Source: Rubrobacter xylanophilus
GTDB lineage: Bacteria; Actinomycetota; Rubrobacteria; Rubrobacterales; Rubrobacteraceae
DNA: 64,000 bases
Assembly (NCBI RefSeq): GCF_007164525.1
Contig: NZ_AP019791.1
Location: 2,405,501-2,469,500, forward strand
Direction: 5' to 3'
Positions 29,208-46,555 of this stretch are shown piece by piece; positions within the stretch are counted from its first letter, which is position 1; every line of letters begins with the position of its first letter. The notes beneath the pieces were generated by a model. That model did no database searches and had not been told where the DNA came from. It saw only the letters and a list, made by a program, of their open reading frames with translations. A program made the position numbers and the translations under genes.

Positions 29208-30695
29208 TCAGCCCACCCGCTTCACCCGGACCGCATCGGCGATGACCCAGTCCTTGCCGGCCACGTTGCGGTGCACCCGGACGTACACCCGGTCGCCGGC
29301 CGCCAGAGTGTAGGTGCCGAGCTTCACCCACCGGCCGCCGTTCTTCTCCTGGTTCACGACCCGCCTCTGCCAGCCGCTCACCGTCCTTATGGTGTAACGG
29401 GTGTGCCGGTTGTAGCCGGCGTTGGCCGGCCACCAGGCGAAGACGGCGTACTTGCCGCGCTTGGGAATCTTGATCTTGTACTTGGCCGTGTCGTTGACGC
29501 TGCGCGGCTTGGCCGCCCGGTAGTTCTTGCCGTACTTCTGGTTGTTCCAACTGCTGAGCTTCCATGCCTTGGAGGCTCTGAACCGCGGGGAAGAGTTGTC
29601 CACCACCTGTTTGTAGGTGTTTGTACCGGCGTAGTTACGCACCAGCCGCATGTACTTGCTCCAGTTCCAGTGCGGTCCAGGGTCGGTGTGGGTCGCTCCC
29701 GGCACCTCGTTGTGCCCGATTATGTGCTTGCGGTCGATCGGGATTTTGTACTTCTTGCACAAATAGGCCGCGAGCCGCGCCGAGGAGCGGTACATTGCGT
29801 CGGTGAACCAGCTTTTCTCGGACACATACCCCTCGTGCTCGATGCCGATGCTTCGGGTGTTGTACTCCCAGTTGCCGGCGTGCCAGGCGATGTCCTCCTC
29901 GCGCACGCTCTGACCTATCTTCCCATCCGAGGAGCGGACGGTGTAGTGGGCGGAGACCTGCGCCCTCCCGTCCTTGAACCAGTTTATGGCGCTGGACCAG
30001 GAGCCCTGGGTGACGTGGATGACGATCCGGTTTATGTCATAGGAGCGCTCCCTGTTGGAGTCGGTGTAGTTGTTGGAGTGGGCCCCATACCAGGTCGCCC
30101 GATTGTAGTCGGCGGTGGCCATGGTCGTGTAGACCTCCCGGGTCTCGGCCTCGGGGTGCGCCCCGAGCCGCACCCGCTCGCCGCCGGAGGTCTCGGCCTC
30201 CGCTCCCTTCCTCAGCGTCTCGTAGACCTGGTTGGCGTAGAGCACTCCGTCCCCGTACGCCGAGACCGCCTCGTACCAGCCGTTTATGTCGCGGGGCTTC
30301 CTCTCGCCCTGGATGTCCGCGAGCACCGCGGCCGCCCCGCGGATGTTCGCCGCCCGCTCCTTCTTGAGCCTCTCCACGGAGATCCCGGTGAGCTCTGCCG
30401 CCCGTCCCAGCGTGTCCTTCGAGGGGTTGCGGGTGAGCGCCATGATCCCGTACTGCCCCCGGCCCTCGGTCGCGCCCTTCTCGTAGTCGCTCGCCTCCGG
30501 CGGGGGCATCTCCCAGCGGGTGTTCACGTACCCCATCGCCTTCAGCAGGTCCGCCGGTACCCCGTACTCGGCCGCCGCCACCCGAAACTCCGCCTCCAGG
30601 CTTCCCCCCTCCCGGGCCGCAGCCCCGCCGGAGCCCGCGAGCCCGAACGCCAGTGCCGTTGCCAGGGCCACGAAGGCCACCGTCGCCGCGCGCAA
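29208..30695 (-). CDS. Secreted N-acetylmuramoyl-L-alanine amidase, copy 1
   Basis: A 495-residue exported protein. Order of parts: signal peptide (1-27, ending GGAAA), a lysozyme-like region about 35-140 (LLKAMGYVNTRWE), an amidase_2 domain about 170-320, and a golvesin-C-like beta domain at 350-495. Zinc ligands are visible: IHVTQG, HTDPG with its aspartate, and the catalytic GIEHEG. It cleaves the bond between muramic acid and the peptide stem. The start is TTG at 30695, 6 nt after GGAGG, in the same position as the ATG of the paralogue at 33409. A GTG at 30713 is an alternative. Divergent from a sulfotransferase gene. Confidence 0.87.
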   Translation of the reverse strand: MRAATVAFVALATALAFGLAGSGGAAAREGGSLEAEFRVAAAEYGVPADLLKAMGYVNTRWEMPPPEASDYEKGATEGRGQYGIMALTRNPSKDTLGRAAELTGISVERLKKERAANIRGAAAVLADIQGERKPRDINGWYEAVSAYGDGVLYANQVYETLRKGAEAETSGGERVRLGAHPEAETREVYTTMATADYNRATWYGAHSNNYTDSNRERSYDINRIVIHVTQGSWSSAINWFKDGRAQVSAHYTVRSSDGKIGQSVREEDIAWHAGNWEYNTRSIGIEHEGYVSEKSWFTDAMYRSSARLAAYLCKKYKIPIDRKHIIGHNEVPGATHTDPGPHWNWSKYMRLVRNYAGTNTYKQVVDNSSPRFRASKAWKLSSWNNQKYGKNYRAAKPRSVNDTAKYKIKIPKRGKYAVFAWWPANAGYNRHTRYTIRTVSGWQRRVVNQEKNGGRWVKLGTYTLAAGDRVYVRVHRNVAGKDWVIADAVRVKRVG

Positions 30696-30738
30696 GATCC
30701 CCCTCCGATACACTTCCGTCGTTTTCCTGCCACAGGGA

Positions 30739-30768
30739 ATTATCGGGTAAAGCGGTTGAGAACTTAAG
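30739..30768 (-). promoter_or_regulatory. Promoter block of amidase copy 1
   Basis: GATAAT at 30739-30744 is the -10, and TTAAGT lies 17 bp upstream. A 29-bp frame (30740-30768), CTTAAGTT, 13 bp, CCCGATAA, is repeated upstream of the paralogous amidase at 33451-33479 with identical ends and spacing. This indicates a shared, functional promoter. Confidence 0.65.
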
Positions 30769-30792
30769 AGGTCCGGCGGGAGTTTTTGGATT

Positions 30793-30821
30793 TTGGGAAC
30801 GCGCTTAAGAAATGTTAATAT
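30793..30821 (+). promoter_or_regulatory. Promoter of sulfotransferase 1
   Basis: TTGGGA (30793-30798), 17-bp spacer and TAATAT (30816-30821). The predicted transcription start coincides with the ATG at 30829, so the transcript would be leaderless. Confidence 0.6.
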
Positions 30822-30828
30822 CATGATC

Positions 30829-31776
30829 ATGGCTGGGTTCTTGAGGTCGGTGGTTCGCAGGGTAAGGCGCGAGGAGGAGATAGAGGCTCTCCAGCGGCGG
30901 GTCGTACGGCTGGAGCGCAGGCTGCGGGAGCTCGAGTCTCGGGAGCACATAAATCCGGGGAACATGGTCTGGATCTTCGGGGCGGGGAGGACCGGGAGTA
31001 CCTGGCTTGTTCGGATGATGGGAGATCTCCAAGGGCACGAGGTGTGGTTTGAACCTTGGGTTGGGGAGCTCTTCAATCCCGATCGCTTACAGATGGACCG
31101 CAGGAGAGGGAAGAGCTTTGTTCTGGCGCCGCAGTACAAAAAGACGTGGCTGAGGTCTATAAGAAACCTGATCTTGGATGCGGTGAATGCTCGTTTTCCC
31201 GAGGCGACCGTGAATGGGTACTTAATTGCCAAAGAACCGGGGGGCTCTGTGGGAGCTCCGCTTCTGATGGAGGCTTTGCCAGAGAGTCGCATGATACTCT
31301 TGGTCAGGGATCCTAGGGACGTCGTAGCCTCGTGGTTGGACGCACATAGGAGAGGAAGCTGGGCGCAGCAGAAGAAACTGGAGGGCGAGCGGTGCGCGGG
31401 GCTCTCCGAGGAGAAGCAGGACACCTTCGTGAGGAACACGGCGATGCGGTATCTGAAGAACGTGGGAAACGCCAAGCGCGCCTACGAGGCCCACAGAGGT
31501 AGAAAGGCGCTGGTCAAGTACGAGGAACTCAGAGCGGATACCGTGGGAACCCTGAAGCGCGCCTACGCGGAGCTGGGCATCCCGGTAGACGAGGAGGAAC
31601 TGGTCCGGGTGGTCGAACGGCATGCCTGGGAGAAGATCCCTAAAGAGCAGAAGGGCCGGGGCAAGTTCTACCGCAAAGCCAAGCCCGGGGGGTGGCGCGA
31701 GGATCTGACGCCGGAGCAGATCGAGATAGTCGAGGAGATCACCGCCCCATTGTTAAGGGAGCTCTACCCGGCCTGA
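30829..31776 (+). CDS. Sulfotransferase, subfamily A, copy 1
   Basis: A 315-residue P-loop sulfotransferase. A basic N-terminus (FLRSVVRRVRR) and a short coiled coil (about 12-40) precede the PAPS 5'-phosphosulfate loop GAGRTGSTWL near residue 50. The 3'-phosphate site is LVRDPRDVVASWLD near residue 165. The C-terminal KAKPGGWREDLTPEQIE is nearly identical to the two paralogues downstream. It transfers sulfate from PAPS to a carbohydrate or other acceptor. ATG at 30829 is used because the promoter predicts a leaderless mRNA; in-frame ATG at 30823 is an alternative. Forms a divergent pair with amidase copy 1. Confidence 0.85.
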   Translation: MAGFLRSVVRRVRREEEIEALQRRVVRLERRLRELESREHINPGNMVWIFGAGRTGSTWLVRMMGDLQGHEVWFEPWVGELFNPDRLQMDRRRGKSFVLAPQYKKTWLRSIRNLILDAVNARFPEATVNGYLIAKEPGGSVGAPLLMEALPESRMILLVRDPRDVVASWLDAHRRGSWAQQKKLEGERCAGLSEEKQDTFVRNTAMRYLKNVGNAKRAYEAHRGRKALVKYEELRADTVGTLKRAYAELGIPVDEEELVRVVERHAWEKIPKEQKGRGKFYRKAKPGGWREDLTPEQIEIVEEITAPLLRELYPA

Positions 31777-31815
31777 GTGGCCCGATCCGGTAAGCGTCGC
31801 ACCCCCAACCACGGT

Positions 31816-31836: not shown

Positions 31837-31837
31837 C

Positions 31838-33409
31838 TCATTTCTTCAGGATCCGCACGGCGTCGGCGATTATGTAGCCGCTTGACTTGCTCTTGCTTGA
31901 GATGCGCACCCACCATCCGTCCCCAGCGGGCATTTCGAAGCGTCCCAGCGTGTTCCAGCGGTCGCCCCGCTCTCGCTGGCTGACGGTGCGGCTCACCCAC
32001 CCGTTTGCGGTCCTTATCCTGAAGGTGACCCTGCCGCTGTAGCCGGAGTCGGCCGGCCAGCGCGCCTGGACTACGTAGACGTCCCGGGACGGGATCCGGA
32101 CCTTGAACATGGCCGGATCCTCGACGTTGAGCGGTTTGGTGTAGCGATAGTCTTCCCTGAAACGCTGCGAGTTCCAGGAGCTCACGCTCCACTTGCCCGA
32201 GGCCTTGAACCGCCTGGTGTGCCCGTTGTCTATCACCTGCCGGTACTCCGGCTTGGACCTCTGCGTCTCCGCGTTGGCGTAGCTCTTCACGAGGTCCATG
32301 TACCTGCTCCAGTTCCAGTGCTTCCCCGGGTCGGTGTGGCAGCCGGAGCCACCCCCCGTCCCCGAGCAGCCGGGTACCTCGTTGTGCCCGATGATGTGGT
32401 CGCGGTCGATGGGGATCTTGTATTTCTTGCACAGGTACGCCGTCAGTTTCGCCGAGGAGTGGTACATCGCGTCCGTGAACCACGACGGGTCGCTGATGTA
32501 TCCTTCGTGCTCGATGCCCACGCTGGTCTGATTGTACTCCCAGTTTCCGGCGTGCCAGGCGATGTCCTCCTCCCGCACCGACTGTCCGATGAAGCCGTCG
32601 GAGGAGCGAACGTTGTAGTGACAGGAGACTCCGGCCCTGGGGTCCTTGAACCAGTTTATGGCGCTCGAGAACGAGCCCTGCATGACGTGGACGATGACCT
32701 TGTTTATAGGGTTCGAGCCGGGGCGGCTGGCGTTGGTGTAGTTGCCGGAGTATGCCCCGTACCAGGTGGAGTTCGGGTAGTCGCCCGCCGCCTGGAAGGT
32801 GTACTGATCGCGCGGCTCGGCCTCGGGTTGCGGCTCTATCGTCACCCTCCCCGAGGACGTCTCCGCAGAGGCCCCGTCCCTGAGAACCTCGTAGACCTCG
32901 TTCGCGTACAGGGCGCCGCCGCCGAACTTCGCGACGGCGTCGTACCAGCCGTTTACGTCCTTGGGTTTTTCGGATCCCTGCAGGGCGGAGAGCACCGCCG
33001 CGGCGCCCTCCACGTTCGCCGCGCGGTCGGTCTTCAGCTCCTCCTCAGGGATTCCGGTCAGCTCGGAGGCGCGCGAGAGCGTATCGTTTTTGGGGTCGGC
33101 GCTGAGCCCCAGAACTCCGTAGCCGCTCGTTCCGTGTATGTCTCCCGGATTGAAGTCCCCGAACCGTGGCGGCGGCATCTCCCAGCGCGAGCTGACGTAG
33201 CCCATAGCCAGGAGCAGCTTCGTCGGCACCCCGTGCTCCTTAGAGGCCGCCCCGACCTCCGAAGAGACTGCGGGACTGGCCTGCGCGAGCGCGTTGGACG
33301 TCGAGAGCACCCCGAGCAGCGCGGCCCCCGCGACGCCCGCGCCGCTCATCTTGATAAAGTCGCGACGGCTCAACATCGAGGGTGGTGTCGCCCAACCGTT
33401 GGTTTGCAT
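31838..33409 (-). CDS. Secreted N-acetylmuramoyl-L-alanine amidase, copy 2 (Tat signal)
   Basis: A 523-residue paralogue of the amidase at 29208, with the same order: signal, lysozyme-like region, amidase_2 domain, golvesin-C-like domain. The signal is of the twin-arginine type (SRRDFIKMSGAG), unlike copy 1, so export is folded and by Tat. Zinc-site motifs VIVHVMQG, GIEHEG and HTDPGKHW are intact. An 11-residue insert in the active-site loop, GCSGTGGGSGC, brings two cysteines that could form a disulfide. ATG at 33409 is used: GGAGGGGGGAG stands directly before it. Divergent from sulfotransferase 2 at 33589. Confidence 0.88.
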   Translation of the reverse strand: MQTNGWATPPSMLSRRDFIKMSGAGVAGAALLGVLSTSNALAQASPAVSSEVGAASKEHGVPTKLLLAMGYVSSRWEMPPPRFGDFNPGDIHGTSGYGVLGLSADPKNDTLSRASELTGIPEEELKTDRAANVEGAAAVLSALQGSEKPKDVNGWYDAVAKFGGGALYANEVYEVLRDGASAETSSGRVTIEPQPEAEPRDQYTFQAAGDYPNSTWYGAYSGNYTNASRPGSNPINKVIVHVMQGSFSSAINWFKDPRAGVSCHYNVRSSDGFIGQSVREEDIAWHAGNWEYNQTSVGIEHEGYISDPSWFTDAMYHSSAKLTAYLCKKYKIPIDRDHIIGHNEVPGCSGTGGGSGCHTDPGKHWNWSRYMDLVKSYANAETQRSKPEYRQVIDNGHTRRFKASGKWSVSSWNSQRFREDYRYTKPLNVEDPAMFKVRIPSRDVYVVQARWPADSGYSGRVTFRIRTANGWVSRTVSQRERGDRWNTLGRFEMPAGDGWWVRISSKSKSSGYIIADAVRILKK

Positions 33410-33588: not shown

Positions 33589-34575
33589 TTGGCTCTGCTC
33601 TCTCGGGTGCGGCGCGTCGTGAGACGGAACGCGGCGTTGAGAGGCGCCTACTACCGCTCGGTGAGCCTCCTGCACGGCGCGCGCCTGAAGGCCGCGCGGG
33701 GCAAGCGGGCAAACAAATGCCTGGATTCCTCAAAGATCATCTGGATCTTCTGCACCGCGCGCAGCGGCAGCACGTGGGTCAGGGCGATGCTCGCCGACCT
33801 GTTGCCGTGCGAGGTGTGGGAGGAGCCCAAGATCGGCCAGCTCTTCGGCGAGTTCTACGAGAGGGCGCAGAAGGGACAGCTCGGCTCGAAGAACTTCGTG
33901 CTCGGGGACCCCACGCGCGCGGTCTGGACGGAAGCCGTAAGAAGGTTCGCTCTGGAGACGGCCTTCGCCTCGAACCCCTCCATCACCCCCGAACGGTACC
34001 TCTTGGTCAAGGAGCCCGACGGTGCCGTGGGGGCACCGATCCTCATGGAGGCGCTGCCGGAGAGCCGCATGATCCTGCTGGTCCGCGACCCCAGGGACGT
34101 CGTCGCCTCCGCCCTCGACGCCACTGGCGAGGGCGCCTGGATGTACGAGAGGATGGACGCGGATCTAAGGCGCAGAAGATCTCGCCACGAGGCGCGCGGC
34201 CTCGCCGCCTACGTGAGGGCGCGCGCGAACGTCTACAGGCGCCAGATCGGCAACGCCAAACGCGCCTACGAGGCTCACGACGGGCCGAAGACGCTCGTGC
34301 GCTACGAGGACCTCCGCGCTGGCACCACGAGCGTCATGAGACGCGTCCTCACGGAGCTCGGGCTGCCCTTCGGTGAGGCTGCGCTCGCCCGGGTGGTTGA
34401 GCGGCACTCCTGGGAGAACGTGCCCGACTCTGAGAAGGGCTCGGGCAAATTCTACCGCAAGGCCAAGCCCGGAGGGTGGCGTGAGGATCTGACGCCGGAG
34501 CAGATCGAGATAGTTGAGGAGATCACCGCGCCACTCCTGAAGGAGTTCTACCCCCCGCCGGGCGGAGAGACCTGA
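33589..34575 (+). CDS. Sulfotransferase, subfamily A, copy 2
   Basis: A 328-residue P-loop sulfotransferase. The N-terminus ALLSRVRRVVRR resembles that of copy 1. The PAPS loop is CTARSGSTWV near residue 57, and LVRDPRDVVAS stands near residue 164. The C-terminal region shares a 32-nt exact stretch with copy 1 (34483-34514 against 31699-31730). The TTG start has GGAAGGA about 10 nt upstream; a TAAAAT hexamer at 33545-33550 may be the -10. It is divergent from amidase copy 2, repeating the copy 1 arrangement. Acceptor unknown. Confidence 0.85.
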   Translation: MALLSRVRRVVRRNAALRGAYYRSVSLLHGARLKAARGKRANKCLDSSKIIWIFCTARSGSTWVRAMLADLLPCEVWEEPKIGQLFGEFYERAQKGQLGSKNFVLGDPTRAVWTEAVRRFALETAFASNPSITPERYLLVKEPDGAVGAPILMEALPESRMILLVRDPRDVVASALDATGEGAWMYERMDADLRRRRSRHEARGLAAYVRARANVYRRQIGNAKRAYEAHDGPKTLVRYEDLRAGTTSVMRRVLTELGLPFGEAALARVVERHSWENVPDSEKGSGKFYRKAKPGGWREDLTPEQIEIVEEITAPLLKEFYPPPGGET

Positions 34576-34602: not shown

Positions 34603-34632
34603 TTGAAGCAAGATCCGGCCCGGATATATGAT
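34603..34632 (+). promoter_or_regulatory. Promoter of sulfotransferase 3
   Basis: TTGAAG (34603-34608), an 18-bp spacer and TATGAT (34627-34632). The ATG at 34639 stands 6 nt after the -10, so the mRNA is predicted to be leaderless. The TTG at 34603 is therefore the -35 element and not a start codon. Confidence 0.65.
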
Positions 34633-34638
34633 TACGGC

Positions 34639-35610
34639 ATGCGAAACCCGCTCGGCGCCCTCCTCCGCAGGCTGAGACACGAAGAAGAATTGAAGCTGAC
34701 CAGGGAGCGCGTCGCTCGCCAGCAGCGGGAGATCGAGAGCCTCCGGCGCCGCATGGAGGAGCTCGAAGAGCGGGCCGTCGGAGGCGACGGTTTGCCGGCC
34801 AGGCCGGAGAACTTCGTCTGGATCTTCGGCACCGGCAGGAGCGGGAGCACCTGGCTGGGGCGCATGCTGCGCGACCTCCGGGGCAACACGCTCTGGAACG
34901 AGCCGCTGGTGGGCTACATGCTCGGCCAGCTCTACCACGTCCGCGGCGAGTACCTCCACGACAACCCGAACTTCCTCCTCGGGGGGCCGAAGGAGACGTG
35001 GCTGCCCTCCGTGCGCCGCTTCATCCTCGACGCGGCGGCGGCGAAGTTCCCCCGGCACGCGGCGGTCCCTTCGAGGCGGGTGGTGGTCAAGGAGCCCCAC
35101 GGCTCGATGGGGGCCTCCATAATCTCGGAGGCGCTGCCGGAGAGCCGCATGATCCTACTGGTCCGCGACCCCAGGGACGTGGTCGCCTCGAGGCTCGACG
35201 CCCACAGGTCTGGCAGCTGGGCGAGGAAGGGCGTGAGGCCGGACGGGAGGGAAGACGAGTACGTGGAGCGAGATGCCCGGGTCTACGTGAGAGACATGGG
35301 GCACGCCGAGGCCGCCTACGAGATGCACCCGGGGCCGAAGACGACCGTGAGGTACGAGGACCTGAGGGCGGATCCGCTCGGCGGGATGCGCGCTCTGCTC
35401 TCCGCCCTGAGCATCCCCTTCCGCGAGGAAGATCTCGCCGCGGTCGTGGAGAGGCACGCCTGGGAGAACATCCCCGAGGAGGAGAAGGGGCCGGGCAAGA
35501 TTCGACGCAAGGCAAAGCCGGGAGGATGGCGGGAGGATCTCACCCCCGAGCAGGCGAAGGCGGTCGAGCGGGTGGCGGCCTCGTACATCGAGCGGTTCTA
35601 CCCGGATTGA
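34639..35610 (+). CDS. Sulfotransferase, subfamily A, copy 3
   Basis: A 323-residue P-loop sulfotransferase. After a basic N-terminus comes a coiled coil (about 12-46), then the PAPS loop GTGRSGSTWLGRML near residue 63 and LVRDPRDVVASRLD near residue 180. A 53-nt stretch around this motif (35128-35180) differs from copy 2 (34048-34100) at one base only. The C-terminus is KAKPGGWREDLTPEQAKAVE. The ATG was chosen from the leaderless promoter. This copy has no amidase partner, so it may come from a third, reduced duplication. Confidence 0.85.
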   Translation: MRNPLGALLRRLRHEEELKLTRERVARQQREIESLRRRMEELEERAVGGDGLPARPENFVWIFGTGRSGSTWLGRMLRDLRGNTLWNEPLVGYMLGQLYHVRGEYLHDNPNFLLGGPKETWLPSVRRFILDAAAAKFPRHAAVPSRRVVVKEPHGSMGASIISEALPESRMILLVRDPRDVVASRLDAHRSGSWARKGVRPDGREDEYVERDARVYVRDMGHAEAAYEMHPGPKTTVRYEDLRADPLGGMRALLSALSIPFREEDLAAVVERHAWENIPEEEKGPGKIRRKAKPGGWREDLTPEQAKAVERVAASYIERFYPD

Positions 35611-37088: not shown

Positions 37089-37282
37089 TCTTCGGGATCA
37101 TGGTGCTAAGATGCGCGGGGCTCGAGGCGAGAGCCGCCCGTCAGCGGAGAGCAACGGAGGAAGATAATCGTAGGCTGCAGAAGGGTGATCGTCCGTGAGT
37201 GATCCGCTCGCGCGCAGAGGTCGGTCGGACCACCGGTGAGCGGGCTGCCTGGGATGAGAGCCGCCACGGGGGGACCGGACGC

Positions 37283-38522: not shown

Positions 38523-38938
38523 TGATCCTGGACACCAGCGGGCTGCTGGCGGCCATCGACTCGGACCAGCGCTCGCACGCCGCCGCGAGAAGGGCGATCG
38601 AGGCGGACGGGGGGCCGTTCATCCTCTCGCCGTTCGTGCTCGCGGAGCTGGACTACCTTCTCGCCACCCGGGTGGGAAGAGGGGCGCAACTCGCGTTGCT
38701 CGACGAGGTCGGGCGCGGAGCCTACCGCCTCGAGCGGTTCACGGCCACGGACGTGGCGCGGGCCACGGAGGTGCTGAGGAGGTACGAAGACCTCGACCTC
38801 GGTCTCACGGACGCGTCGAACGTGGTGCTCTCCCGCCGCCACGGCGTCTCCGACATCCTCACCCTCGACGAGCGGCACTTCCGGGTGCTCTCCGCCGCGG
38901 AGAACCGGCCGTTCCGGCTGCTGCCCGCCGATCTGTAG
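38522..38938 (+). CDS. PIN-domain toxin (VapC-like ribonuclease)
   Basis: A 138-residue PIN domain. The metal-binding acids are visible: MILDTSGLLAAID, ELDYLL, LTDASNVVLS and DERHFR. VapC toxins are endoribonucleases that cut tRNA or rRNA when the antitoxin is degraded. The ATG overlaps the antitoxin stop; a GTG 3 nt upstream is also possible. The pair lies within the glycan locus with no other link to it. It may stabilise the locus against loss (inference). Confidence 0.86.
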   Translation: MILDTSGLLAAIDSDQRSHAAARRAIEADGGPFILSPFVLAELDYLLATRVGRGAQLALLDEVGRGAYRLERFTATDVARATEVLRRYEDLDLGLTDASNVVLSRRHGVSDILTLDERHFRVLSAAENRPFRLLPADL

Positions 38939-39051: not shown

Positions 39052-40173
39052 GTGAACGTCGAGCGCGTCATAGAGCGCCTGAGGGACTACCGGGCGCAGA
39101 ACGAGCGCTTCGACCGGCTGGTCACCGCCGTGATGTCCAACGAGCTGACCGGGAAGGCCGTGCGCGCGGCGGTCATCAAGGCGGACGCCATCTCCCGGTC
39201 GAGGCGCAGGGCGAGCCCGGGAGAGTACGAGACCGTCTTCTTCATAGCCGGGGAGATGCGCTCCGGGACCTCCTGGCTCAGGCGGACGCTGAGCGCGCAC
39301 CCCGAGATAGCCTGCGGGCACGAGGGGAGCTTCTTCGGGCGGGGCTACGAGCGCGAGGAGATCCCCGTCTACACCGCCCCCGTCTCCAGCCTCACCCGCG
39401 CCCTCGCCGGCTCGGAGGAGCTGAGGGTATGGCACGGGCTCCCGTGGAACCGCTGGAGCGACGACTACGAGGCCGACCTGCGCAACCTCGTCCGTCTCTC
39501 GGTGGACTACTTCCTCTCCAAGGAGGTCGCCCGCACCGGCAAGAGGATCGTCGGGGACAAGAGCCCGCAGCACACCGAGAACCTCGACGAGATCCACGAG
39601 TACTACCCCGACGCGCGGGTGATCCACATCGTGCGCGACGGGCGGGACGTGGCGGTCTCCGCGATGCACCACTGGTGGCGGGAGGCGAAGGACCGGCCCG
39701 GCGGGATCTTCGAGCTCACCCGGGAGGAGCTCGAGATCCGGGATGCCTACCTCGCGGATCGGGAAGGGTTTCTGAAGAGCGGGCGCTCTATCTTCACCGA
39801 GGAGCGGCTGCGACAGCTGGCCCGCCGCTGGAGCCACCGGGTCGGCAAGGCACGCCGCGACGGCACCGCCCTCTTCGGCGACAGGTACCTGGAGATCCGC
39901 TACGAGGACTTGTTGCAAGACACCCCTGCCACCCTGTTCAAGGTTCTGGAGTTCCTCGGGGCCCGGCGTGGAGATCCCATCGTCGAGCGTTGCATCAGGG
40001 CCAGCAGCTTCGAACGCGTCTCCAGCCGCCGGCAGGGCGAGGAGGACGCTACCTCCTTCTTCAGAAAGGGCGTTGCGGGCGACTGGAAGAACGTCTTCAC
40101 CGAGCGGGACCGGCGGGTGTACGGGGAGATCGCCGGCCGGCGGCTGGCGGAGATGGGCTACGAGGTGCCGTGA
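39052..40173 (+). CDS. Sulfotransferase, subfamily B, copy 1
   Basis: A 373-residue P-loop sulfotransferase. The PAPS loop is IAGEMRSGTSWLRRTL near residue 68. GDKSPQHTENLDEI and IVRDGRDVAVSAMHHWWREA (about 195-214) hold the 3'-phosphate site. The C-terminal RKGVAGDWKNVFTERDRR is shared with the gene at 42387, so the two are paralogues distinct from subfamily A. It is predicted to sulfate a sugar or other polymer group. The GTG start is fixed by the TATAAT 8 nt upstream. The stop overlaps the next gene, a glycosyltransferase. Confidence 0.86.
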   Translation: MNVERVIERLRDYRAQNERFDRLVTAVMSNELTGKAVRAAVIKADAISRSRRRASPGEYETVFFIAGEMRSGTSWLRRTLSAHPEIACGHEGSFFGRGYEREEIPVYTAPVSSLTRALAGSEELRVWHGLPWNRWSDDYEADLRNLVRLSVDYFLSKEVARTGKRIVGDKSPQHTENLDEIHEYYPDARVIHIVRDGRDVAVSAMHHWWREAKDRPGGIFELTREELEIRDAYLADREGFLKSGRSIFTEERLRQLARRWSHRVGKARRDGTALFGDRYLEIRYEDLLQDTPATLFKVLEFLGARRGDPIVERCIRASSFERVSSRRQGEEDATSFFRKGVAGDWKNVFTERDRRVYGEIAGRRLAEMGYEVP

Positions 40174-41531
40174 GGGTCCTGTTCGCCGCGCACCAGTTCT
40201 TCCCCGAGCACTACGCGGGGGTGGAGATCGTCACGCTTGGTCTGGCCAAGCAGCTGCGCGCCCGCGGACACGAGACGTTCGTGCTGGCCCCGAAGAGAAG
40301 CATACCCGGCAACAACATAGAGCCCGGTCAGATAGAGGACTACGAGTTCGAAGGAATCCCCGTTCGCAGGGTGGGGCGTCCGAAGGAGGGGCTGAACCGT
40401 CCCTATCGCCTGGACTACGAGAACGAGGTCATGGCCGGGCGCGCGCGGGAGTACATGCGGGAGGTGAAGCCGGACGTGGTGCACGCCGAGCACTTCCAGG
40501 GGCTGTCCGCCGCGGTGATCCCGGCGTTCAAAGAGTTCGGCGTCCCGCTGGTGTACACCGCGACGGACTTCTGGACCATGTGCCCGGTCGTGGACTTCCG
40601 CCGGCACGACGGTGCGATGTGCCGGGGACCGGAGCTCCACCACTGCATCCGCTGCATAGCGAGCCGGCACCAGGGCAGCCGCCTGAAGGCCGTGATGGAC
40701 CGGACCCCCGATGCAGCCGTCCGACTGGCTGCAAAGCTCTCCTCCACGCCGCTTGGGACGCGCCTGCACCCGCTGCGGCAGGTGCGGGCGCTCCGGGAGC
40801 GCCCCGCATACATACGGGAGAGGATGAAGATGGTGGACAGGATCATCGTGTACACCCGGCTCATGCGGGAGCTGCTGCTCGCCAACGGCATCGGCGAGGA
40901 TAAAAAAATAGTCGTCTCGCCCTACGGCATAGACACCTCCCGCATCGCGGGGCTGCCACGTAACACCTCCGAACCACCGCCCCTGCGCGTGGGGTTCATC
41001 GGCACGCTGGCCCCGCACAAGGGCTGCGACATCCTCATCCGGGCCTTCAGGATGCTGCCCCCGGAGATGGAGGCCGAGCTCAAGATCTACGGCAACCTGG
41101 AGCGCTTCAAGCCCTTCGTGCGGCACCTGCGGCGGCTCGCCGCGGGCGACCCGAGGATAGCCTTCCCTGGGCCCTTCCAGCGGGAGGAGGTCGGAGAGGT
41201 GCTCTCCGGGCTCGACGTGCTGGTGGTTCCCTCCCGCTGGTACGAGAACCAGCCGGGTGTGATCCTGGAGGCCTTCGCCGCCGGGATGCCCGTGGTCGCC
41301 ACCGACCTCGGCGGCATGAGCGAGTTCGTCCGCCACGAGGAGAACGGGCTTCTCTTCGGGCTCGACGACCCCGTGGACCTCGCCCGCCAGCTGCGCCGGC
41401 TCTACGAAGAGCCAGGGCTTCTGCGACGCCTGCGGGAGGGCATAGGCCCGGTGAAGACCGTGGAGGAGGACGCCGCGGAGCTGGAGGCCCTCTACGAATC
41501 GCTCCTCTCCGGGAGGGAGCGGGTGGTCTGA
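40170..41531 (+). CDS. Family 4-type glycosyltransferase (GT-B)
   Basis: A 453-residue GT-B glycosyltransferase. The N-terminus is VLFAAHQFFPEHYAGVEIVTLGLA. The C-terminal domain has FIGTLAPHKGCDILIRAF, VPSRWYENQPGVILEAFAAGMPVVATDLGG, with the conserved donor-binding E-x7-E. A cysteine-rich insertion is visible near residue 145 (MCPVVDFRR, MCRGPELHHCIRC), as in transferases of this subclass. The GTG start overlaps the preceding sulfotransferase (GTGA), and rfbD follows after one base. A role in adding rhamnose or another sugar to the polymer backbone fits the operon. Confidence 0.87.
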   Translation: MRVLFAAHQFFPEHYAGVEIVTLGLAKQLRARGHETFVLAPKRSIPGNNIEPGQIEDYEFEGIPVRRVGRPKEGLNRPYRLDYENEVMAGRAREYMREVKPDVVHAEHFQGLSAAVIPAFKEFGVPLVYTATDFWTMCPVVDFRRHDGAMCRGPELHHCIRCIASRHQGSRLKAVMDRTPDAAVRLAAKLSSTPLGTRLHPLRQVRALRERPAYIRERMKMVDRIIVYTRLMRELLLANGIGEDKKIVVSPYGIDTSRIAGLPRNTSEPPPLRVGFIGTLAPHKGCDILIRAFRMLPPEMEAELKIYGNLERFKPFVRHLRRLAAGDPRIAFPGPFQREEVGEVLSGLDVLVVPSRWYENQPGVILEAFAAGMPVVATDLGGMSEFVRHEENGLLFGLDDPVDLARQLRRLYEEPGLLRRLREGIGPVKTVEEDAAELEALYESLLSGRERVV

Positions 41532-41532
41532 G

Positions 41533-42390
41533 ATGAGCGGTGCGGCACGGCGGGTGCTCGTGACCGGAGCCGGAGGGCAGCTCGGCAGGGAGCTCGCCGT
41601 AAGGCTCCCCGAGTACGGGTACGAGGTGGTGGCGCTCGGCCACGGTGAGCTGGACATCGCGGACGCCGGCGCGGTCGGGGAGGCGCTCCGGCGGCACGCG
41701 CCGGAGGTGGTGGTCAACGCCGCGGCCTACACGAACGTGGACGGCTGTGAGTCCGAGAGCGTCCTCGCCTACCGCATCAACGCCCTCGGGCCGCGCAACC
41801 TGGCCCAGAGCTGCGAGCGGATGGGGTGCGAGCTGTTGCACGTGAGCACCAACTACGTCTTCGACGGAAGCTCAGAGCGGCCCTATGCGCCCTGGGACCG
41901 GCCCAACCCTTTGAGCGTCTACGGGGCCACCAAGCTCGCTGGGGAGGAGTACGTGAGGCATCTCTGCACCCGGTGGTACCTGGTGCGGACCGCGGGGGTC
42001 TACGGCGAGGGCCGCAACTTCGTGCGCACCATGCTGCGGGCCGCGCGGGAGAGGAAGACCCTCAAGGTAAAGGACGACGAGTACATCTCGCCGACCTACG
42101 CCCGGGATCTCGCCCGGGGCATCGCGCGGATAATCCAGGGTGGACTCTACGGCATCTACCACGTCACCAACGCGGGCTCCTGCTCCTGGCACGAGTTCGC
42201 CCGCGAGATCTTCCGGATAGCCGGGATGGACGTGGAGGTTGTCCCGGTGCCGAGCTCCGGTTATCCTCTCCCGGCGGCGCGGCCGGCCAACGGGGTGCTC
42301 TCCTCGCCCGATGGACCCGCGCTGCGGCACTGGAGGGAGGCGTTGGCCGAGTACCTGAGAGAGGAGCTGGGTCGGGAGCGACACGCATGA
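41533..42390 (+). CDS. rfbD: dTDP-4-dehydrorhamnose reductase
   Basis: A 285-residue SDR. It starts VLVTGAGGQLGRELAVRL, has VVNAAAYTNVDGCES, STNYVFDGSSERPY and the catalytic YGATKLAGEEYV. It reduces dTDP-4-keto-rhamnose to dTDP-L-rhamnose with NAD(P)H. This completes the pathway whose first three genes lie 20 kb upstream at 19255-21751. The ATG starts one base after the glycosyltransferase gene, and its stop overlaps the next sulfotransferase. The last 30 residues (about 250-285) vary, as usual. Confidence 0.93.
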   Translation: MSGAARRVLVTGAGGQLGRELAVRLPEYGYEVVALGHGELDIADAGAVGEALRRHAPEVVVNAAAYTNVDGCESESVLAYRINALGPRNLAQSCERMGCELLHVSTNYVFDGSSERPYAPWDRPNPLSVYGATKLAGEEYVRHLCTRWYLVRTAGVYGEGRNFVRTMLRAARERKTLKVKDDEYISPTYARDLARGIARIIQGGLYGIYHVTNAGSCSWHEFAREIFRIAGMDVEVVPVPSSGYPLPAARPANGVLSSPDGPALRHWREALAEYLREELGRERHA

Positions 42391-43562
42391 AGTTGAGCTA
42401 TATCAAGGAGAAGCTTCCCGTCGGGAAGGCGACGGAGAGGGCGCGTTACCTGCTCGGCAGGGACGGTCTCCTGACCTCGCGGCTTTTCGAGGGGCGACGT
42501 CTGCGGCGGCAGCTGGCCTTGAAAAACCGCGAGATCGCCGCGCTAAAAGAGGAGCTGGCCCGGCGATCTCGCGGCCCCGCCGCCACCCGGATGCCGCCCG
42601 TCAGCCCCGACGTGTTCTTCGTCGTGGGACATCAGAAGTCCGGCACCACCTGGCTCATGAAGATGCTCGACGCCCACCCCGAGATCCTGTGCCGGGGCGA
42701 GGGACGGCCCTTCGGGCGCAACTTCCGCCAGAAGCACAAGGCCGGCAGAGGAGGTTATCCCCCGGTCTCCCTCTACAACGCCATCGCCGACTCCCGGGGC
42801 TTGAGGCTCTGGATCCAGCGTTCGGTGTGGACCAAGCGCGACCGGCTCGATGAGCACCTCAACAACCTGACCCGCCTCGCCATCGAGTACTTCCTGACCC
42901 AGGAGCTGGTGGAGAGCGGCAAGCGCATGGTGGGGGACAAGACTGTGTTGCTCACCCCGGACATCGTGGAGGAGATAGCGGCGGTGTACCCGGAGGCGAA
43001 GGTGATCCACATAATCCGGGACGGGCGTGACGTCGCCGTCTCCACCATGCACCACATCTGGAACCAGGCCGAGGACCGCGGGGGACACAGCAGGATCACC
43101 CCGGCCCAGCGGGAGAAGCGCGAGGCGTACTGGAAGGATCCCGAGGGCCTCATAAAACACGGCGGAGGCATCTTCCCCGACGGCTGGCTCCGCAACTACG
43201 CCGCCCAGTGGAAACGAAGGGTTGGCAAAACGGTGGAGGACGGCCCCACACTGCTGGGCCAGAACTACGCCGAGGTCCGGTACGAGGACCTGCTGGCCCG
43301 CCCCCACGAGGAGCTTGCTCGCCTGCTGCGGTTTCTCGGCGCCGACGCGGGGGAAGAGCGGGTGCGCGGGTGCGTGGAGGCCGCCTCCTTCGAGAAGCTC
43401 TCCAGGGGACGCCGGCGCGGCGAGGAGGCCCCCGACTTCTTTCGCAAGGGAATAGCCGGCGACTGGAAAAACGTCTTCACCGAGCACAACCGGCGGGAGT
43501 TCAAGGAGGCCGCGGGCGACCTCCTGATCCAGCTTGGCTACGAGCGCGACGAAAGCTGGTAA
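42387..43562 (+). CDS. Sulfotransferase, subfamily B, copy 2
   Basis: A 391-residue P-loop sulfotransferase with an N-terminal basic and helical segment of about 60 residues. The PAPS loop is VVGHQKSGTTWLMKML near residue 75; IIRDGRDVAVSTMHHIWNQA stands near residue 210. The C-terminal RKGIAGDWKNVFTEHNRR matches the gene at 39052. The ATG overlaps the rfbD stop, so the enzyme is translated together with rhamnose synthesis. Sulfation of rhamnose or a neighbouring sugar is a reasonable inference. Confidence 0.87.
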   Translation: MKLSYIKEKLPVGKATERARYLLGRDGLLTSRLFEGRRLRRQLALKNREIAALKEELARRSRGPAATRMPPVSPDVFFVVGHQKSGTTWLMKMLDAHPEILCRGEGRPFGRNFRQKHKAGRGGYPPVSLYNAIADSRGLRLWIQRSVWTKRDRLDEHLNNLTRLAIEYFLTQELVESGKRMVGDKTVLLTPDIVEEIAAVYPEAKVIHIIRDGRDVAVSTMHHIWNQAEDRGGHSRITPAQREKREAYWKDPEGLIKHGGGIFPDGWLRNYAAQWKRRVGKTVEDGPTLLGQNYAEVRYEDLLARPHEELARLLRFLGADAGEERVRGCVEAASFEKLSRGRRRGEEAPDFFRKGIAGDWKNVFTEHNRREFKEAAGDLLIQLGYERDESW

Positions 43563-43625: not shown

Positions 43626-43647
43626 GAGATAGAACTGAGATAGAACT
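43626..43647 (+). repeat. Tandem 11-bp direct repeat before sulfotransferase 7
   Basis: GAGATAGAACT is repeated exactly and adjacently (43626-43636, 43637-43647). The second copy ends in the T of the TTG start codon. Purpose unknown. Confidence 0.55.
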
Positions 43648-44450
43648 TGAGCAGACAGCTGATAGTCGCCGGGTTTCACCGTAGTGGTACCTCGTTGGTA
43701 TGCCAGCTCTTGCACCGTGCCGGGCTCTTTCTGGGGTACGACCTGCTCGGGGCCACCTTCTCCAATCCCAACGGTCACTTCGAGGATGCCGAAGTCGTAG
43801 AACTCCACAGGCGGATACTGGCGGACAACGGCCGCACCTGGAGGGTCGGGAAACACTTTACGCCGGTGATCGCCGATTCCCACTGGGATACCATGCGTCA
43901 CTTGGTGGAGCGGCGAGATGCCGAACACGAGCTGTGGGGGTTCAAGGACCCAAGGGTTTGCCTCTTTCTGCCACTATGGAAGCATCTGCTGCCACACGCC
44001 CGGGTGCTGATCGTGTACCGACACTTCGCCGAGGCCACCCGATCTTTGGTTCGCCGCCAGGCTCGGGAGATCTTCCTGGGTCGGGGTTCCCGGGAGGAGC
44101 TCGGCCATTTCTGGAGGGAGCCGGATCTCGCCCTGAGAATGTGGCTTACGCACAACGAAGCCCTGCTTTCCTTCGCCCTGGCCCACCCGGAAGACACCCT
44201 GGCGGTGTCGCTGGATATGATCCGAGACGGGTTTCCGCTGGTGCGGGTGCTGAACGCCCGGTGGGGACTCGGCCTGAAAGAGATCCCTACGGAACGGGTT
44301 TTCGATTCCCGGCTCACCTCTGGCCAGAGGGGCAAACAGCCGGTGTCCGACCGGCGTCTCATCGGCCGGGTCGAGACCGTGTGGAAGGAGCTTGAGCGTC
44401 TCGGCGAGCGAACGCAGCGCTGCGTTGAGGAGGAGATCGGCCTTGCCTGA
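43647..44450 (+). CDS. Sulfotransferase-like protein 7
   Basis: A 267-residue P-loop protein: IVAGFHRSGTSLVCQLLH, NPNGHFEDAEVVELHRRIL, GFKDPRVCLFLPLW and IVYRHFAEATRSLVRRQA. These correspond piece by piece to the sulfotransferase-like domain of the gene at 35733 and to a family that modifies glycans. The TTG start lies in the second copy of an 11-bp tandem repeat and lacks a good ribosome-binding site, so the exact start is uncertain. The 3' end overlaps the next gene by 8 bp. Confidence 0.75.
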   Translation: MSRQLIVAGFHRSGTSLVCQLLHRAGLFLGYDLLGATFSNPNGHFEDAEVVELHRRILADNGRTWRVGKHFTPVIADSHWDTMRHLVERRDAEHELWGFKDPRVCLFLPLWKHLLPHARVLIVYRHFAEATRSLVRRQAREIFLGRGSREELGHFWREPDLALRMWLTHNEALLSFALAHPEDTLAVSLDMIRDGFPLVRVLNARWGLGLKEIPTERVFDSRLTSGQRGKQPVSDRRLIGRVETVWKELERLGERTQRCVEEEIGLA

Positions 44451-44844
44451 GGATGACTTCTACACCCCGACCGACGCCGACGCCCTGCGGATGGAGAACG
44501 AGCTGCTCGCCTTCGAGGTGGAGTTTCTCAGGGCCAGGTACGCAGACCGGGAACGCGCCATAGCCGAGGCCCGCCGGGAGGCCGAGGAGAGCGTCGAACG
44601 GAAGGTCCGCCGCCGGGTACGGCAGGCGACGGCCGATCTCCGGAGGCAGCTGGAGGAGACCCGGAAGCGGCTGGAGGAGGCCAGGGAGGTCGCGACCATG
44701 GATCCCGGCCGCAAGGCCCGCCTGGAGAGGGCGGAGAAGGACCTAGTCCTCCTGCTGAACATGATCTCCAGCAGCCCGGCCGGACCTCTGCTGCGTCTGA
44801 AGCCCTCCTTCCGGGAGCTGGAACGTCGCTACTTGAGAACCTGA
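44443..44844 (+). CDS. Coiled-coil protein of the glycan locus
   Basis: A 133-residue, highly charged protein. Residues about 20-90 form a continuous coiled coil rich in Glu, Arg and Ala. No enzymatic motif is visible. The TTG start has AGGAG about 8 nt upstream and overlaps the previous gene by 8 bp. The C-terminal region of the sulfotransferase at 35733 is similar in composition, so this could be a detached scaffold part for the sulfotransferase at 43647 (inference). Function otherwise unknown. Confidence 0.65.
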   Translation: MPEDDFYTPTDADALRMENELLAFEVEFLRARYADRERAIAEARREAEESVERKVRRRVRQATADLRRQLEETRKRLEEAREVATMDPGRKARLERAEKDLVLLLNMISSSPAGPLLRLKPSFRELERRYLRT

Positions 44845-44851
44845 GGAACGA

Positions 44852-45856
44852 ATGTCCGGCGGCGCTCCTACGGTCTCCACGCTGATCTACGTCGGTAGCC
44901 TGGCGGTTAGCAACCTTCGCCTTCCACCCGGCAGCAATATTGTACCGGGGCGGGACGAGTTGCTGCGCATCATACATAGACGACGGCCGCCCCGGACGCT
45001 GGTAATCCTCGATCCGGGTTCCTTCCCGTTCGAGGAGCTCCCGGCTGAGTGGTGGGATGTGCCGCTGGGAGTCTCCCTGATTTCCAGGGAAGAGACAGAG
45101 AAACTTATCCGGCGTTCTGGAGAGGCCGTTCTTGGGCGACTCGGGTTCTTCGATAGGGTCGCCGTTAGGGATCCGGGGATCTGGCGCGCACTGAGCGCCA
45201 GCTACGTTTGGGACGAGGGGCAGCTCGTGGAATGTGGGGAGACGGACCCGGAGACGCTCGCCGCCCGCCTGTGCGCGGCCGTTGAGGGAGTTGTGGAGAA
45301 GTGGGGGTGGAATGCAAAGGCTGTCCACCGCACACGGGACGCAGCGCTCGAGCGGTTCCTGGATGCCCGGAAGCAGTGTCTGGACGGAGGTGTACTTCAG
45401 ATCTGTGCCGAAGACGGAAGATGGGCCCAGACCTTTCTGCAAAGGGGCCAGCCCTTTACTTTTGCAACAGAGGATAACGCAACGCCGGGAACCTTCCGGC
45501 GGAACTATCCTGCTTCATCCTCGAGCCTCTTAGAGACAAATTCCGGCAGCTCTCTCATGCCGGAAACATTCGGCCTCGTGTTTGGTGAGAGCCTGCTGCA
45601 AAAAGGTTCACTCCAAAGCGTGGCTCGCTTGGTTAGCCGTATGTGGAACCTTGCCCGGTCCGGATGTTGCTTAGCTTTCTTGGACGACTTTGTGTTCGAA
45701 CATGGGGAAGGGGTATCTATCAAGCGGTTCGTTGAGCTCGTGAACGAGGCAACGGAGCGACGGGTAGTGTTGGATCATATCGAGTCTCTGCGCTATCCCG
45801 GAGATGAGATTTATCGGGGGGCGCTTCTAGTCTTCAAGAAGCTGGGGCTGGGATAA
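44852..45856 (+). CDS. Protein of unknown function, methyltransferase-like second half
   Basis: A 334-residue protein I do not recognise. The middle part, GVLQICAEDGRWAQTFL, resembles the first strand and loop of a class I methyltransferase, with FGLVFGESLLQKGSLQSVARLV later. The usual GxGxG is replaced by ICAEDG, so cofactor binding is uncertain. The first 150 residues show no recognisable domain. ATG has GAGGA 4 nt upstream. Codon use shifts to lower GC in the second half, and the region downstream stays lower, suggesting foreign origin. Confidence 0.6.
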   Translation: MSGGAPTVSTLIYVGSLAVSNLRLPPGSNIVPGRDELLRIIHRRRPPRTLVILDPGSFPFEELPAEWWDVPLGVSLISREETEKLIRRSGEAVLGRLGFFDRVAVRDPGIWRALSASYVWDEGQLVECGETDPETLAARLCAAVEGVVEKWGWNAKAVHRTRDAALERFLDARKQCLDGGVLQICAEDGRWAQTFLQRGQPFTFATEDNATPGTFRRNYPASSSSLLETNSGSSLMPETFGLVFGESLLQKGSLQSVARLVSRMWNLARSGCCLAFLDDFVFEHGEGVSIKRFVELVNEATERRVVLDHIESLRYPGDEIYRGALLVFKKLGLG

Positions 45857-45952
45857 ATGAAAGATCGAGCGAGCCGATTGTTTTTCCAAGCGGGATCTTT
45901 GGTGCTGCATTGTCCAAGGCCGGCCAGCATCCGGTAGAGCTGTTGGCGTTTT

Positions 45953-46555
45953 CTACGCGCCGATCGCCTGCTCGTATATTCTGTACTCGGGCTCAAGAAA
46001 CGCTCGCAGCTCGCGCTTGCACCTCTCGGAGAGTTGGAGATCTCGCTTGGGAGATACGTTACTGAGCCCTACCTTTACCTCTCTGCCAATCTTTTCGCAC
46101 AGGTACTCGACCAGCAGGTCCAGGCGTTCGTAGCGGAATACTTTGTCCATCTCACGTTGGCCGGGGCATGAACGCACGAACTGTGAGGGCCGCCCCACAC
46201 GCGCGAATGGCTCCTTGCCCTCCATGTACGCTACTGCGAACTCTTCGAAGGAGACGTGACCCGCGTAGTTCCGGTGGCCTTTGAGCTCCTCGCGGGTTCT
46301 GTAGCGATACCAGCTGAACAGCCAGTCGATCGGTTCGCGGAACACGCATACCACCTCGTAGGAGTCGCGTGGGAACCCCTTGGACTCGAGAAAGGGCTGC
46401 AAAAAGCGCTGGAAATCTGCGTAGCGGGTGTGTTTGAGAGCTGGATTGCTCTTGAACATGCCGTTTGTGAACGGCATAAAGGCTCTTTCGATTGACGTGG
46501 AAGCGGTCTTGGGCATGGCCAGGAAGACGAAGCCTCTTACAGGTGCGATGAGCAT
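45953..46555 (-). CDS. Sulfotransferase-like protein 8
   Basis: A 200-residue small P-loop protein. PAPS-loop-like FLAMPKTASTSIERAF is at residue 12, and VCVFREPIDWLFSWYRYRT (3'-phosphate site) near residue 70. This is the shape of sulfotransferase_2 type enzymes. The gene is convergent to the preceding one and 5 bp downstream of a glycosyltransferase on the same strand. Its base composition is lower in GC than the neighbours upstream. Confidence 0.78.
   Translation of the reverse strand: MLIAPVRGFVFLAMPKTASTSIERAFMPFTNGMFKSNPALKHTRYADFQRFLQPFLESKGFPRDSYEVVCVFREPIDWLFSWYRYRTREELKGHRNYAGHVSFEEFAVAYMEGKEPFARVGRPSQFVRSCPGQREMDKVFRYERLDLLVEYLCEKIGREVKVGLSNVSPKRDLQLSERCKRELRAFLEPEYRIYEQAIGA

Follow-up and report, generated by a model that had tools for sequence, protein, structure and literature searches.

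Eight genes of the sulfotransferase families lie in the genome of Rubrobacter xylanophilus among genes for making and exporting a polysaccharide. I consider it likely, judging from the genes, that the locus serves PAPS-dependent sulfation, in the cytosol, of a rhamnose-containing surface polysaccharide or wall glycan that is exported by Wzm/Wzt; the sulfate, the acceptors and the attachment to the wall are predictions. Since the core of the locus is conserved over most of the family, the Rubrobacteraceae probably coat themselves in sulfated polysaccharide. Positions refer to the window, the whole stretch of 64,000 nucleotides that was analysed.

Eight sulfotransferase genes of four subtypes

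A preliminary description of this DNA had noted eight P-loop sulfotransferase genes of at least four subtypes. All eight open reading frames are present, with starts no more than about 40 bases from those given there. In a profile search all eight exceed the curated cut-offs of Pfam sulfotransferase families, and pairwise identity confirms four subtypes. Subtype A consists of ST1 (30829..31776), ST2 (33589..34575) and ST3 (34603..35610), at 47-52% identity, subtype B of ST5 (39052..40173) and ST6 (42387..43562), at 45%, and subtype C of the sulfotransferase-like ST4 (35733..37088), which ends in a coiled-coil-like tail, and ST7 (43647..44450), at 32%, all on the forward strand. ST8 (45953..46555, reverse strand) stands alone as subtype D. 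The members of subtypes A and B score 60-112 bits against Sulfotransfer_3 (cut-off 27) and 57-93 bits against Sulfotransfer_1 (cut-off 22), ST1 reaching 59.6 and 63.9 bits, respectively, and ST5 a Pfam score of 111.7 bits. ST4 and ST7 barely exceed the Sulfotransfer_3 cut-off (30.3 and 27.9 bits), and ST8 is marginal against Sulfotransfer_2 (27.0 bits, cut-off 22).

Chance is ruled out as the cause of the clustering: 13 kb hold seven of the 13 PF13469 genes of the genome, against a Poisson expectation of 0.05 (P ~3e-10). Over three Pfam families the 3.02 Mb genome contains 15 sulfotransferase genes, eight of them in the locus. Other sulfotransferase clusters elsewhere in the genome carry a flippase, and one carries Wzy_C. 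A recent triplication within R. xylanophilus is excluded as the origin of ST1-3: they are old paralogues, and each belongs to a lineage of its own that is also represented in other genera (that of ST2 is common to G022, G024 and G038, that of ST3 to G014, L042 and G010).

The motifs of the PAPS site (the 5'-phosphosulfate loop, the 3'-phosphate Arg/Ser motif and RKxxxGxW) are intact in ST1-3, ST5 and ST6; ST1, for example, has GRTGSTW, RDPRDVVAS and RKAKPGGWRE, and the RKGVAGDWKN of ST5 is a motif common to SULTs. In the alignment of ST4 and ST7 the P-loop and RxxxxxxxS are recognisable and RKxxxGxW is absent. The top PDB fold matches of the AF2 model of ST5 are TPST and SULT-PAP structures (E 4.6e-9 for TPST). 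The best matches for the model of ST7 are also TPST/SULT, at E 2.8e-5 and with modest TM scores, so the models give ST5 a sulfotransferase fold and ST7 the same fold more weakly. Sequence searches of the PDB yielded no matches for ST2 and ST8, and those for ST7 were ribosomal and due to chance.

Perhaps only ST1-3, ST5 and ST6 are active on the glycan, a reading I hold tentatively and one compatible with the preferred explanation. ST4, ST7 and ST8 would then have diverged to some other role, as scaffold, regulator or enzyme with another acceptor, and the block containing ST8 and a polysaccharide pyruvyl transferase family protein (48517..49377, reverse strand; PS_pyruv_trans, 74 bits) would belong to a different, recently acquired glycan. 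The marginal profile scores of the three and the modest fold scores of ST7 point this way, as does the GC content, 0.57-0.61 at 45-49 kb where the window as a whole has 0.69. Because it lies in this low-GC patch, the part with ST8 and the pyruvyl transferase may be a separate, newer addition; ST8 has counterparts in G014 (75%) and G027 (67%). However, purifying selection acts on ST5-8, whose dN/dS values (0.15-0.17) lie inside the range of the sugar genes, ST7 has close orthologues in several genera of the family, and the P-loop RSGTS, KDPR and the R...SL residues are invariant in a small alignment of ST4 and ST7.

Polysaccharide genes, export and the sulfate donor

The neighbours named in the preliminary description (glycosyltransferases, rmlD, amidases, Wzm/Wzt, ugd, UXS, a WecA-like enzyme and the pyruvyl transferase) were borne out by profile or structure matches. 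On the forward strand lie genes for dTDP-glucose 4,6-dehydratase (rmlB, 19270..20325, start codon not fixed; GDP_Man_Dehyd/Epimerase, syntenic in G014 of the same genus), glucose-1-phosphate thymidylyltransferase (rmlA, 20322..21203; NTP_transferase, 97% identity to G014), the 3,5-epimerase (rmlC, 21212..21751; dTDP_sugar_isom) and dTDP-4-dehydrorhamnose reductase (rmlD, 41533..42390; RmlD_sub_bind, 316 bits). The same strand carries genes for UDP-glucose 6-dehydrogenase (ugd, 25944..27323; a Pfam match, TuaD/AglM-like and under those equivalog cut-offs), UDP-glucuronate decarboxylase (UXS, 27316..28284) and a UDP-glucose 4-epimerase-like protein (28281..29201; 308 bits to solved UDP-glucose 4-epimerases). 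UXS, not confirmed by name in NCBIfam, takes its identity from a search of solved structures (370 bits to human UXS1, 143 bits to the next class). Further along are a WecA-like phospho-sugar transferase suited to chain initiation (50855..51826; PF00953, 106 bits, TIGR02380 under its cut-off) and a FlaA1-type UDP-sugar dehydratase (51864..53819; Polysacc_synt_2, 356 bits).

The glycosyltransferases include four of the GT2 type: GT2a (21748..22596, reverse strand), which adjoins Wzt in other genera, GT2b (22606..23607, reverse strand), GT2c (37199..38251, forward strand), a core gene syntenic beside ST5 in other genera, all three matching Glycos_transf_2, and GT2d (46561..47724, reverse strand), a weak Pfam GT2 match kept in G014 and G027. 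To these are added GT4 (40170..41531, forward strand), a core gene matched by Pfam and present as an orthologue in 23 of 39 genomes of the family, and a GT92/GT2 enzyme (47660..48550, reverse strand; Glyco_tranf_2_4 and Glyco_transf_92). The couplings proposed earlier between ST5 and GT4 and between rmlD and ST6 are real four-base overlaps (GTGA at 40170 and ATGA at 42387).

Export would fall to the Wzm permease (24909..25724; ABC2_membrane) and the Wzt ATPase (23614..24909; ABC_tran), both on the reverse strand. The latter bears a Wzt_C carbohydrate-recognition domain, and its closest solved structures are TarH and other ATPases of polysaccharide ABC transporters. Hydropathy revealed no Wzx/Wzy-like polytopic protein and no other exporter or polymerase among the scored locus genes, and assembly by Wzx/Wzy was rejected in favour of the ABC exporter. 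Together with the lack of predicted membrane segments in any of the eight sulfotransferases, this fits cytosolic sulfation ahead of ABC export. Two forward-strand genes may be candidates for a chain-terminating modification recognised by Wzt_C: that of a coiled-coil-like protein (44392..44844; 93% identity to G014), kept in several genera between ST7 and its other neighbour, and that neighbour, encoding a methyltransferase-like protein (44852..45856) whose own sequence has no Pfam match and whose syntenic orthologue in G011 (L129) matches Methyltransf_11 at 42.6 bits.

The same enzymes and exporter might instead deliver sulfate to an S-layer or other protein-linked glycan, or to a glycolipid head group, so that only the final acceptor would differ. 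Wzm/Wzt and rhamnose genes are indeed used for S-layer glycans in other Gram-positive bacteria. I regard this acceptor as unlikely, though worth keeping in mind: no ligase was recognised among the scanned locus genes, which leaves room for it, but the closeness of Wzt to TarH and the presence of two secreted amidases with Amidase_2 and Golvesin_C domains point, weakly, to the wall. Both amidases are encoded on the reverse strand, the first (29208..30770, start codon not fixed; 90% in G014) adjoining the locus in other genera and the second (31838..33409) having a TAT signal.

The genome-wide check for PAPS synthesis called for at the outset found sat and two cysC genes, outside the locus and, by the shorter way round an assumed circular chromosome, about 0.8-0.9 Mb from it. 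CysH has four cysteines and aligns with the APS reductase of P. aeruginosa; NCBIfam names it PAPS reductase, and it scores 212.6 against the APS_reductase model, under the cut-off of 235.3. With a CysH of this APS-reductase type, assimilation is unlikely to be the main use of PAPS and can probably do without it, and PAPS would probably be spent mainly on sulfation. APS kinase is found in all 22 near-complete genomes of the family.

Conservation in the family and proposed function

Every one of the same 22 near-complete Rubrobacteraceae genomes contains PF13469 sulfotransferases, the median number of matches being 12, compared with 0 in the remaining sample of the phylum, and 20 of the genomes have Wzt orthologues. 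Fifteen genomes of eight genera have Wzt and the ST/GT4 module together within some 25 kb of a single contig, so that, as the comparison of relatives proposed earlier could show, linkage to Wzm/Wzt and to the glycosyltransferase and rml genes is kept in other genera, which further supports a surface-glycan system. Two blocks are syntenic across genera: the core ST(1-3)-GT2c-ST5-GT4-rmlD-ST6 and Ami-Wzm-Wzt-GT2b-GT2a. The ST/GT module does not always travel with the exporter, given that the Wzt orthologue of G010 is about 0.7 Mb away and that the two parts lie on different contigs in G025-27. Close GT4 orthologues are absent from 4 of the 22 near-complete genomes, and the number of sulfotransferases differs from species to species.

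It is improbable that the enzymes act on proteins or on small molecules (lipids, secondary metabolites) and lie among sugar genes by accident. This might be supposed because the fold of ST5 most resembles those of tyrosylprotein sulfotransferases and SULTs, whose substrates are peptides and small molecules, and because a screen for phenol sulfotransferases included RradSPS_0172 of Rubrobacter radiotolerans among its candidates (PMC6731281), but gene order and the overlaps with glycosyltransferases and rmlD are kept in many genera and a fold likeness at 14-20% identity says nothing on the acceptor.

The preferred explanation, a sulfated glycan exported by Wzm/Wzt, would work as follows. Rml, Ugd, UXS and the epimerase, by homology, would supply dTDP-rhamnose and UDP-sugars, the WecA-like enzyme would probably start a chain on a lipid carrier, and the GT2 and GT4 enzymes would build it in the cytosol. 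With PAPS presumably delivered by Sat and the two CysC proteins, up to eight soluble sulfotransferases, assigned to that class by profile, motifs and fold, would sulfate the growing chain from the cytosolic side at different positions or sugars. Wzt_C would recognise the finished chain, Wzm/Wzt, linked to the module as described, would export it, and the chain would probably be fixed to the wall while the secreted amidases remodel its surroundings. The preliminary description had gone further, to a single polymer both sulfated and pyruvylated and containing rhamnose and uronate/xylose. The genes are still best explained by a sulfated surface-glycan system; the pyruvylated, uronate/xylose polymer stays a prediction. 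More speculative still, and rather doubtful, is a multiply sulfated Gram-positive wall polymer that defines the family, on which the four subtypes and the old paralogues would each write a distinct site, in a pattern variable among species and of a complexity comparable to that of animal glycosaminoglycans.

Relation to described systems

Literature searches for a sulfated glycan in Rubrobacter found nothing, in agreement with the earlier statement that no such system had been described in this group; the kind is known elsewhere, in cyanobacteria and in a small number of marine bacteria, and predicted in one actinomycete. The nearest characterised systems are synechan and the ABC-exported capsules of Vibrio sp. 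KMM 8419 (PMC11641403) and Cobetia marina KMM 1449 (PMC11766843). The two capsules are sulfated polysaccharides that were isolated and their structures solved. According to the available text of these two reports, they share with the Rubrobacter locus ABC-transporter export, rml genes and sulfotransferases within the polymer locus, the Cobetia region having a pyruvyltransferase as well, but they come from marine Gram-negative bacteria, and their clusters include the PAPS genes and one to three sulfotransferases. The Rubrobacter locus is actinobacterial and family-wide, with Wzt_C in its Wzm/Wzt exporter, PAPS genes elsewhere and eight sulfotransferases.

Synechan, made by the xss cluster of Synechocystis 6803 (PMC8205485), is a rhamnose-containing sulfated EPS from a glycosyltransferase cluster with the same Pfam sulfotransferase families. 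It differs in its Wzx/Wzy assembly, two sulfotransferases and cyanobacterial regulators, and the Rubrobacter locus, with its ABC exporter, is not an xss system. The wps-1 cluster of Actinoplanes missouriensis (PMC13390465) is an actinomycete EPS cluster with predicted sulfation, but it has Wzx/Wzy and two sulfotransferases, both required for normal sporangium formation. A putative GAG-like cluster in Pontiella sulfatireligans (PMC7356697), whose sulfated exopolymer has been measured, likewise sets a PF13469 sulfotransferase among GT2 and GT4 genes, but only one, and in an anaerobic member of the Kiritimatiellae. What is new in Rubrobacter, as far as the available text of these reports extends, is that the locus lies in a Gram-positive lineage, is conserved across the family and has eight enzymes, against one to three in the described clusters.

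Such a locus would supply a large set of candidate bacterial carbohydrate sulfotransferases. The Rubrobacter family is known for tolerance to heat, desiccation and radiation, and a family-wide locus with eight sulfotransferases would mean that the trait also occurs in Gram-positive extremophiles. It would also suggest a connection, open to testing, between a dense anionic coat and the retention of water or the binding of metals.

The eight sulfotransferase genes and their setting

The window (64 kb, GC 68.6%) comes from a complete genome of 3.02 Mb. The preliminary description recognized eight sulfotransferase ORFs within it, and all eight do score above the curated Pfam cut-offs for sulfotransferases. 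They lie at window positions 30829 (ST1), 33589 (ST2), 34603 (ST3), 35733 (ST4), 39052 (ST5), 42387 (ST6), 43647 (ST7) and 45953 (ST8, on the minus strand). The scores of three are weak (ST4, 30.3 bits; ST7, 27.9; ST8, 27.0). Pairwise BLAST separates four subtypes: A (ST1, ST2 and ST3; 47-52% identity), B (ST5 and ST6; 45%), C (ST4 and ST7; 32%) and D (ST8). The genome contains 13 PF13469 genes, seven of them inside 13 kb of the window, where a Poisson model expects 0.05 neighbours (chance about 3e-10). Taking PF13469, PF00685 and the PF03567 match together, there are at least 15 sulfotransferase genes, a lower bound, as the first two profiles covered the whole genome and PF03567 did not. Those outside the locus lie at 1.15-1.17 Mb (beside Wzy_C and flippase genes), 1.82-1.83 Mb, 2.99 Mb and 3.02 Mb.

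Around the sulfotransferase genes are rmlB, rmlA, rmlC, two GT2 glycosyltransferases, the exporter genes wzm and wzt (the latter with a Wzt_C domain), ugd, UXS and an epimerase. Between and after them come GT2c, GT4, rmlD, genes for coiled-coil-like and methyltransferase-like proteins, two further glycosyltransferases, a pyruvyl-transferase family protein, a WecA-like enzyme and a FlaA1-type dehydratase. The minus strand codes for two secreted proteins with Amidase_2 and Golvesin_C domains. ST5 and GT4 share a four-base overlap, GTGA.

Two stretches stand apart. At 38301-38938, between GT2c and ST5, a small ORF of ribbon-helix-helix-like type is paired with one for a PIN-domain protein (PF01850); this toxin-antitoxin-like pair looks like a lineage insertion, since GT2c and ST5 directly adjoin in G014, a genome of the same genus. 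At 45000-49000 (ST8, GT2d, GT92 and the pyruvyl transferase) GC falls to 0.57-0.61, as compared to 0.69 for the window, which suggests that this block was acquired separately.

Conservation in the Rubrobacteraceae

Among the genome contigs searched, the nearest relatives are Rubrobacter and Rubrobacteraceae MAGs, with ST5 identities of 72-87%. All but two of the 39 Rubrobacteraceae genomes contain PF13469, the 22 near-complete ones without exception. Within the phylum sample, six or more PF13469 matches occur in 22 of 23 family genomes vs. 22 of 223 others (Fisher P 3e-18), and the median is at least 12 in the family and 0 elsewhere; these counts are of stretches rather than genes, and are lower bounds, with up to 11 candidates scored per genome.

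Synteny with G014 extends over the entire stretch from rmlB through FlaA1; absent there are ST1 and ST2, amidase 2 and the toxin-antitoxin-like pair, and extra copies resembling ST6, GT2d and ST4 are present. In other genera both the core ST(A)-GT2c-ST5-GT4-rmlD-ST6 and the group Ami-Wzm-Wzt-GT2b-GT2a (Ami, secreted amidase) are found again. The ends of the ST5 and GT4 matches touch or overlap by one base in G014, G036 and two further loci (L042 and L046). A Wzt orthologue lies within about 25 kb of an ST5/6-type or GT4 orthologue on one contig in 15 genomes of eight genera (G000, the window's own genome, G001, G005-G008, G012, G014, G017, G021-G024, G036 and G038). There are exceptions. In G010 a five-gene module (ST3-GT2c-ST5-GT4-ST6) sits by purine genes, some 0.7 Mb away from Wzt; in G025-G027 the parts of the locus are split over separate contigs. 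All three genomes of genus g11 have a single in-frame TAG in their GT4 orthologue (G025:C22:33962-35302, G026:C27:29317-30657 and G027:C3:22746-24086); with the separated parts, this raises the possibility of pathway decay in that genus.

In a quick tree with many weak forks, ST5 forms a single orthologue clade, and ST1, ST2 and ST3 fall into three lineages, each with members from other genera, and are therefore old paralogues.

Sulfotransferase motifs and the supply of PAPS

Three motifs are retained in ST1-3, ST5 and ST6: the 5'-phosphosulfate loop, of RSGSTW/RSGTSW type; RDxRDVxxS, the 3'-phosphate motif; and RKxxxGxW, which in ST5 reads RKGVAGDWKNVFT, the same as in human SULTs. Loop, RD/S motif and RYED strand are invariant or almost so in an alignment of 32 sequences. 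The AlphaFold2 model of ST5 (pLDDT 78.5) has as its top PDB matches tyrosylprotein sulfotransferases and SULTs with bound PAP (E 4.6e-9). That of ST7 (pLDDT 71.0, built on six sequences) also best matches sulfotransferases, with modest TM scores of 0.4-0.5. Membrane segments were predicted in none of the sulfotransferases. The dN/dS values of ST5-8, from the single genome pair with G014 (Nei-Gojobori), are 0.15-0.17, inside the range that the sugar genes span.

An operon for sulfate assimilation, at about 237-244 kb, comprises cysH, a sulfite-reductase-like gene, sat, cysC and a permease-like gene. A second cysC (APS kinase) lies away from it at 1.51 Mb (8562-9140 of the extracted locus L114), where its neighbours are thiosulfate-sulfurtransferase-like, carbonic-anhydrase-like and permease-like genes. 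All 22 near-complete family genomes encode APS kinase. CysH shows the pattern of four cysteines (CC...CxxC...C region), and its alignment with the APS reductase of P. aeruginosa runs along its length, so that assimilation probably proceeds via APS, leaving PAPS for sulfation; it scores below the cut-off of the NCBIfam APS_reductase model. There are four-cysteine CysH proteins that use both APS and PAPS.

A putative exported glycan and comparable clusters

The further claim of the preliminary description, that the locus specifies a sulfated surface glycan, appears largely right as judged from the genes, the putative product being of an ABC-exported type already known elsewhere. The locus enzymes would supply dTDP-rhamnose, UDP-GlcA, UDP-xylose and possibly UDP-galactose. 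A chain probably begun by the WecA-like enzyme would be extended by the GT2 and GT4 enzymes, sulfated from PAPS in the cytosol by the soluble sulfotransferases, recognized when finished by Wzt_C, and exported through Wzm/Wzt. Sulfation before export fits an ABC pathway, because there the entire chain is made inside the cell. One may speculate that the conserved coiled-coil-like and methyltransferase-like genes encode a pair that caps the chain, as happens in certain other Wzt_C systems. The two features that bear on attachment, the amidases and the likeness of Wzt to TarH, hint at linkage to the wall. That the product is pyruvylated and contains uronate and xylose is a guess from gene content.

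The sulfated capsules of Vibrio KMM 8419 and Cobetia marina have been isolated; both organisms have rml genes, sulfotransferases and ABC export. Synechan depends on Wzx/Wzy and two sulfotransferases; the wps-1 cluster of Actinoplanes has two, its sulfation only predicted; and Pontiella, with a measured sulfated exopolymer, has one in its cluster. A literature search, with subscription journals mostly outside it, found nothing on a sulfated glycan of Rubrobacter or the Rubrobacteraceae. Sulfotransferase density is not by itself unique, since other lineages of actinobacteria have dense tandem arrays too: one genome (G181) has seven matches within 11.6 kb, and there are several genes each in L063:7016-13930 and L064:6343-16451. 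What is new is the setting in an actinobacterial family and the unusually large and diverse sulfotransferase set. The L063 and L064 arrays are interleaved with repeated proteins that start M-RIGIVSKWFNRGQ or similarly and are glycosyltransferase-like by appearance.

The window's own genome seems to hold sulfotransferase clusters of both ABC and Wzx/Wzy type. At about 1158.3-1165.8 kb (L116:332-7815) a sulfotransferase belongs to a glycan cluster that also includes a flippase and a protein with Wzy_C. At about 1823.7-1828.4 kb (L117:7684-12362) a sulfotransferase has a Polysacc_synt flippase and a protein of the sulfatase family (PF00884) close by, possibly a make-and-trim set for another sulfated glycan.
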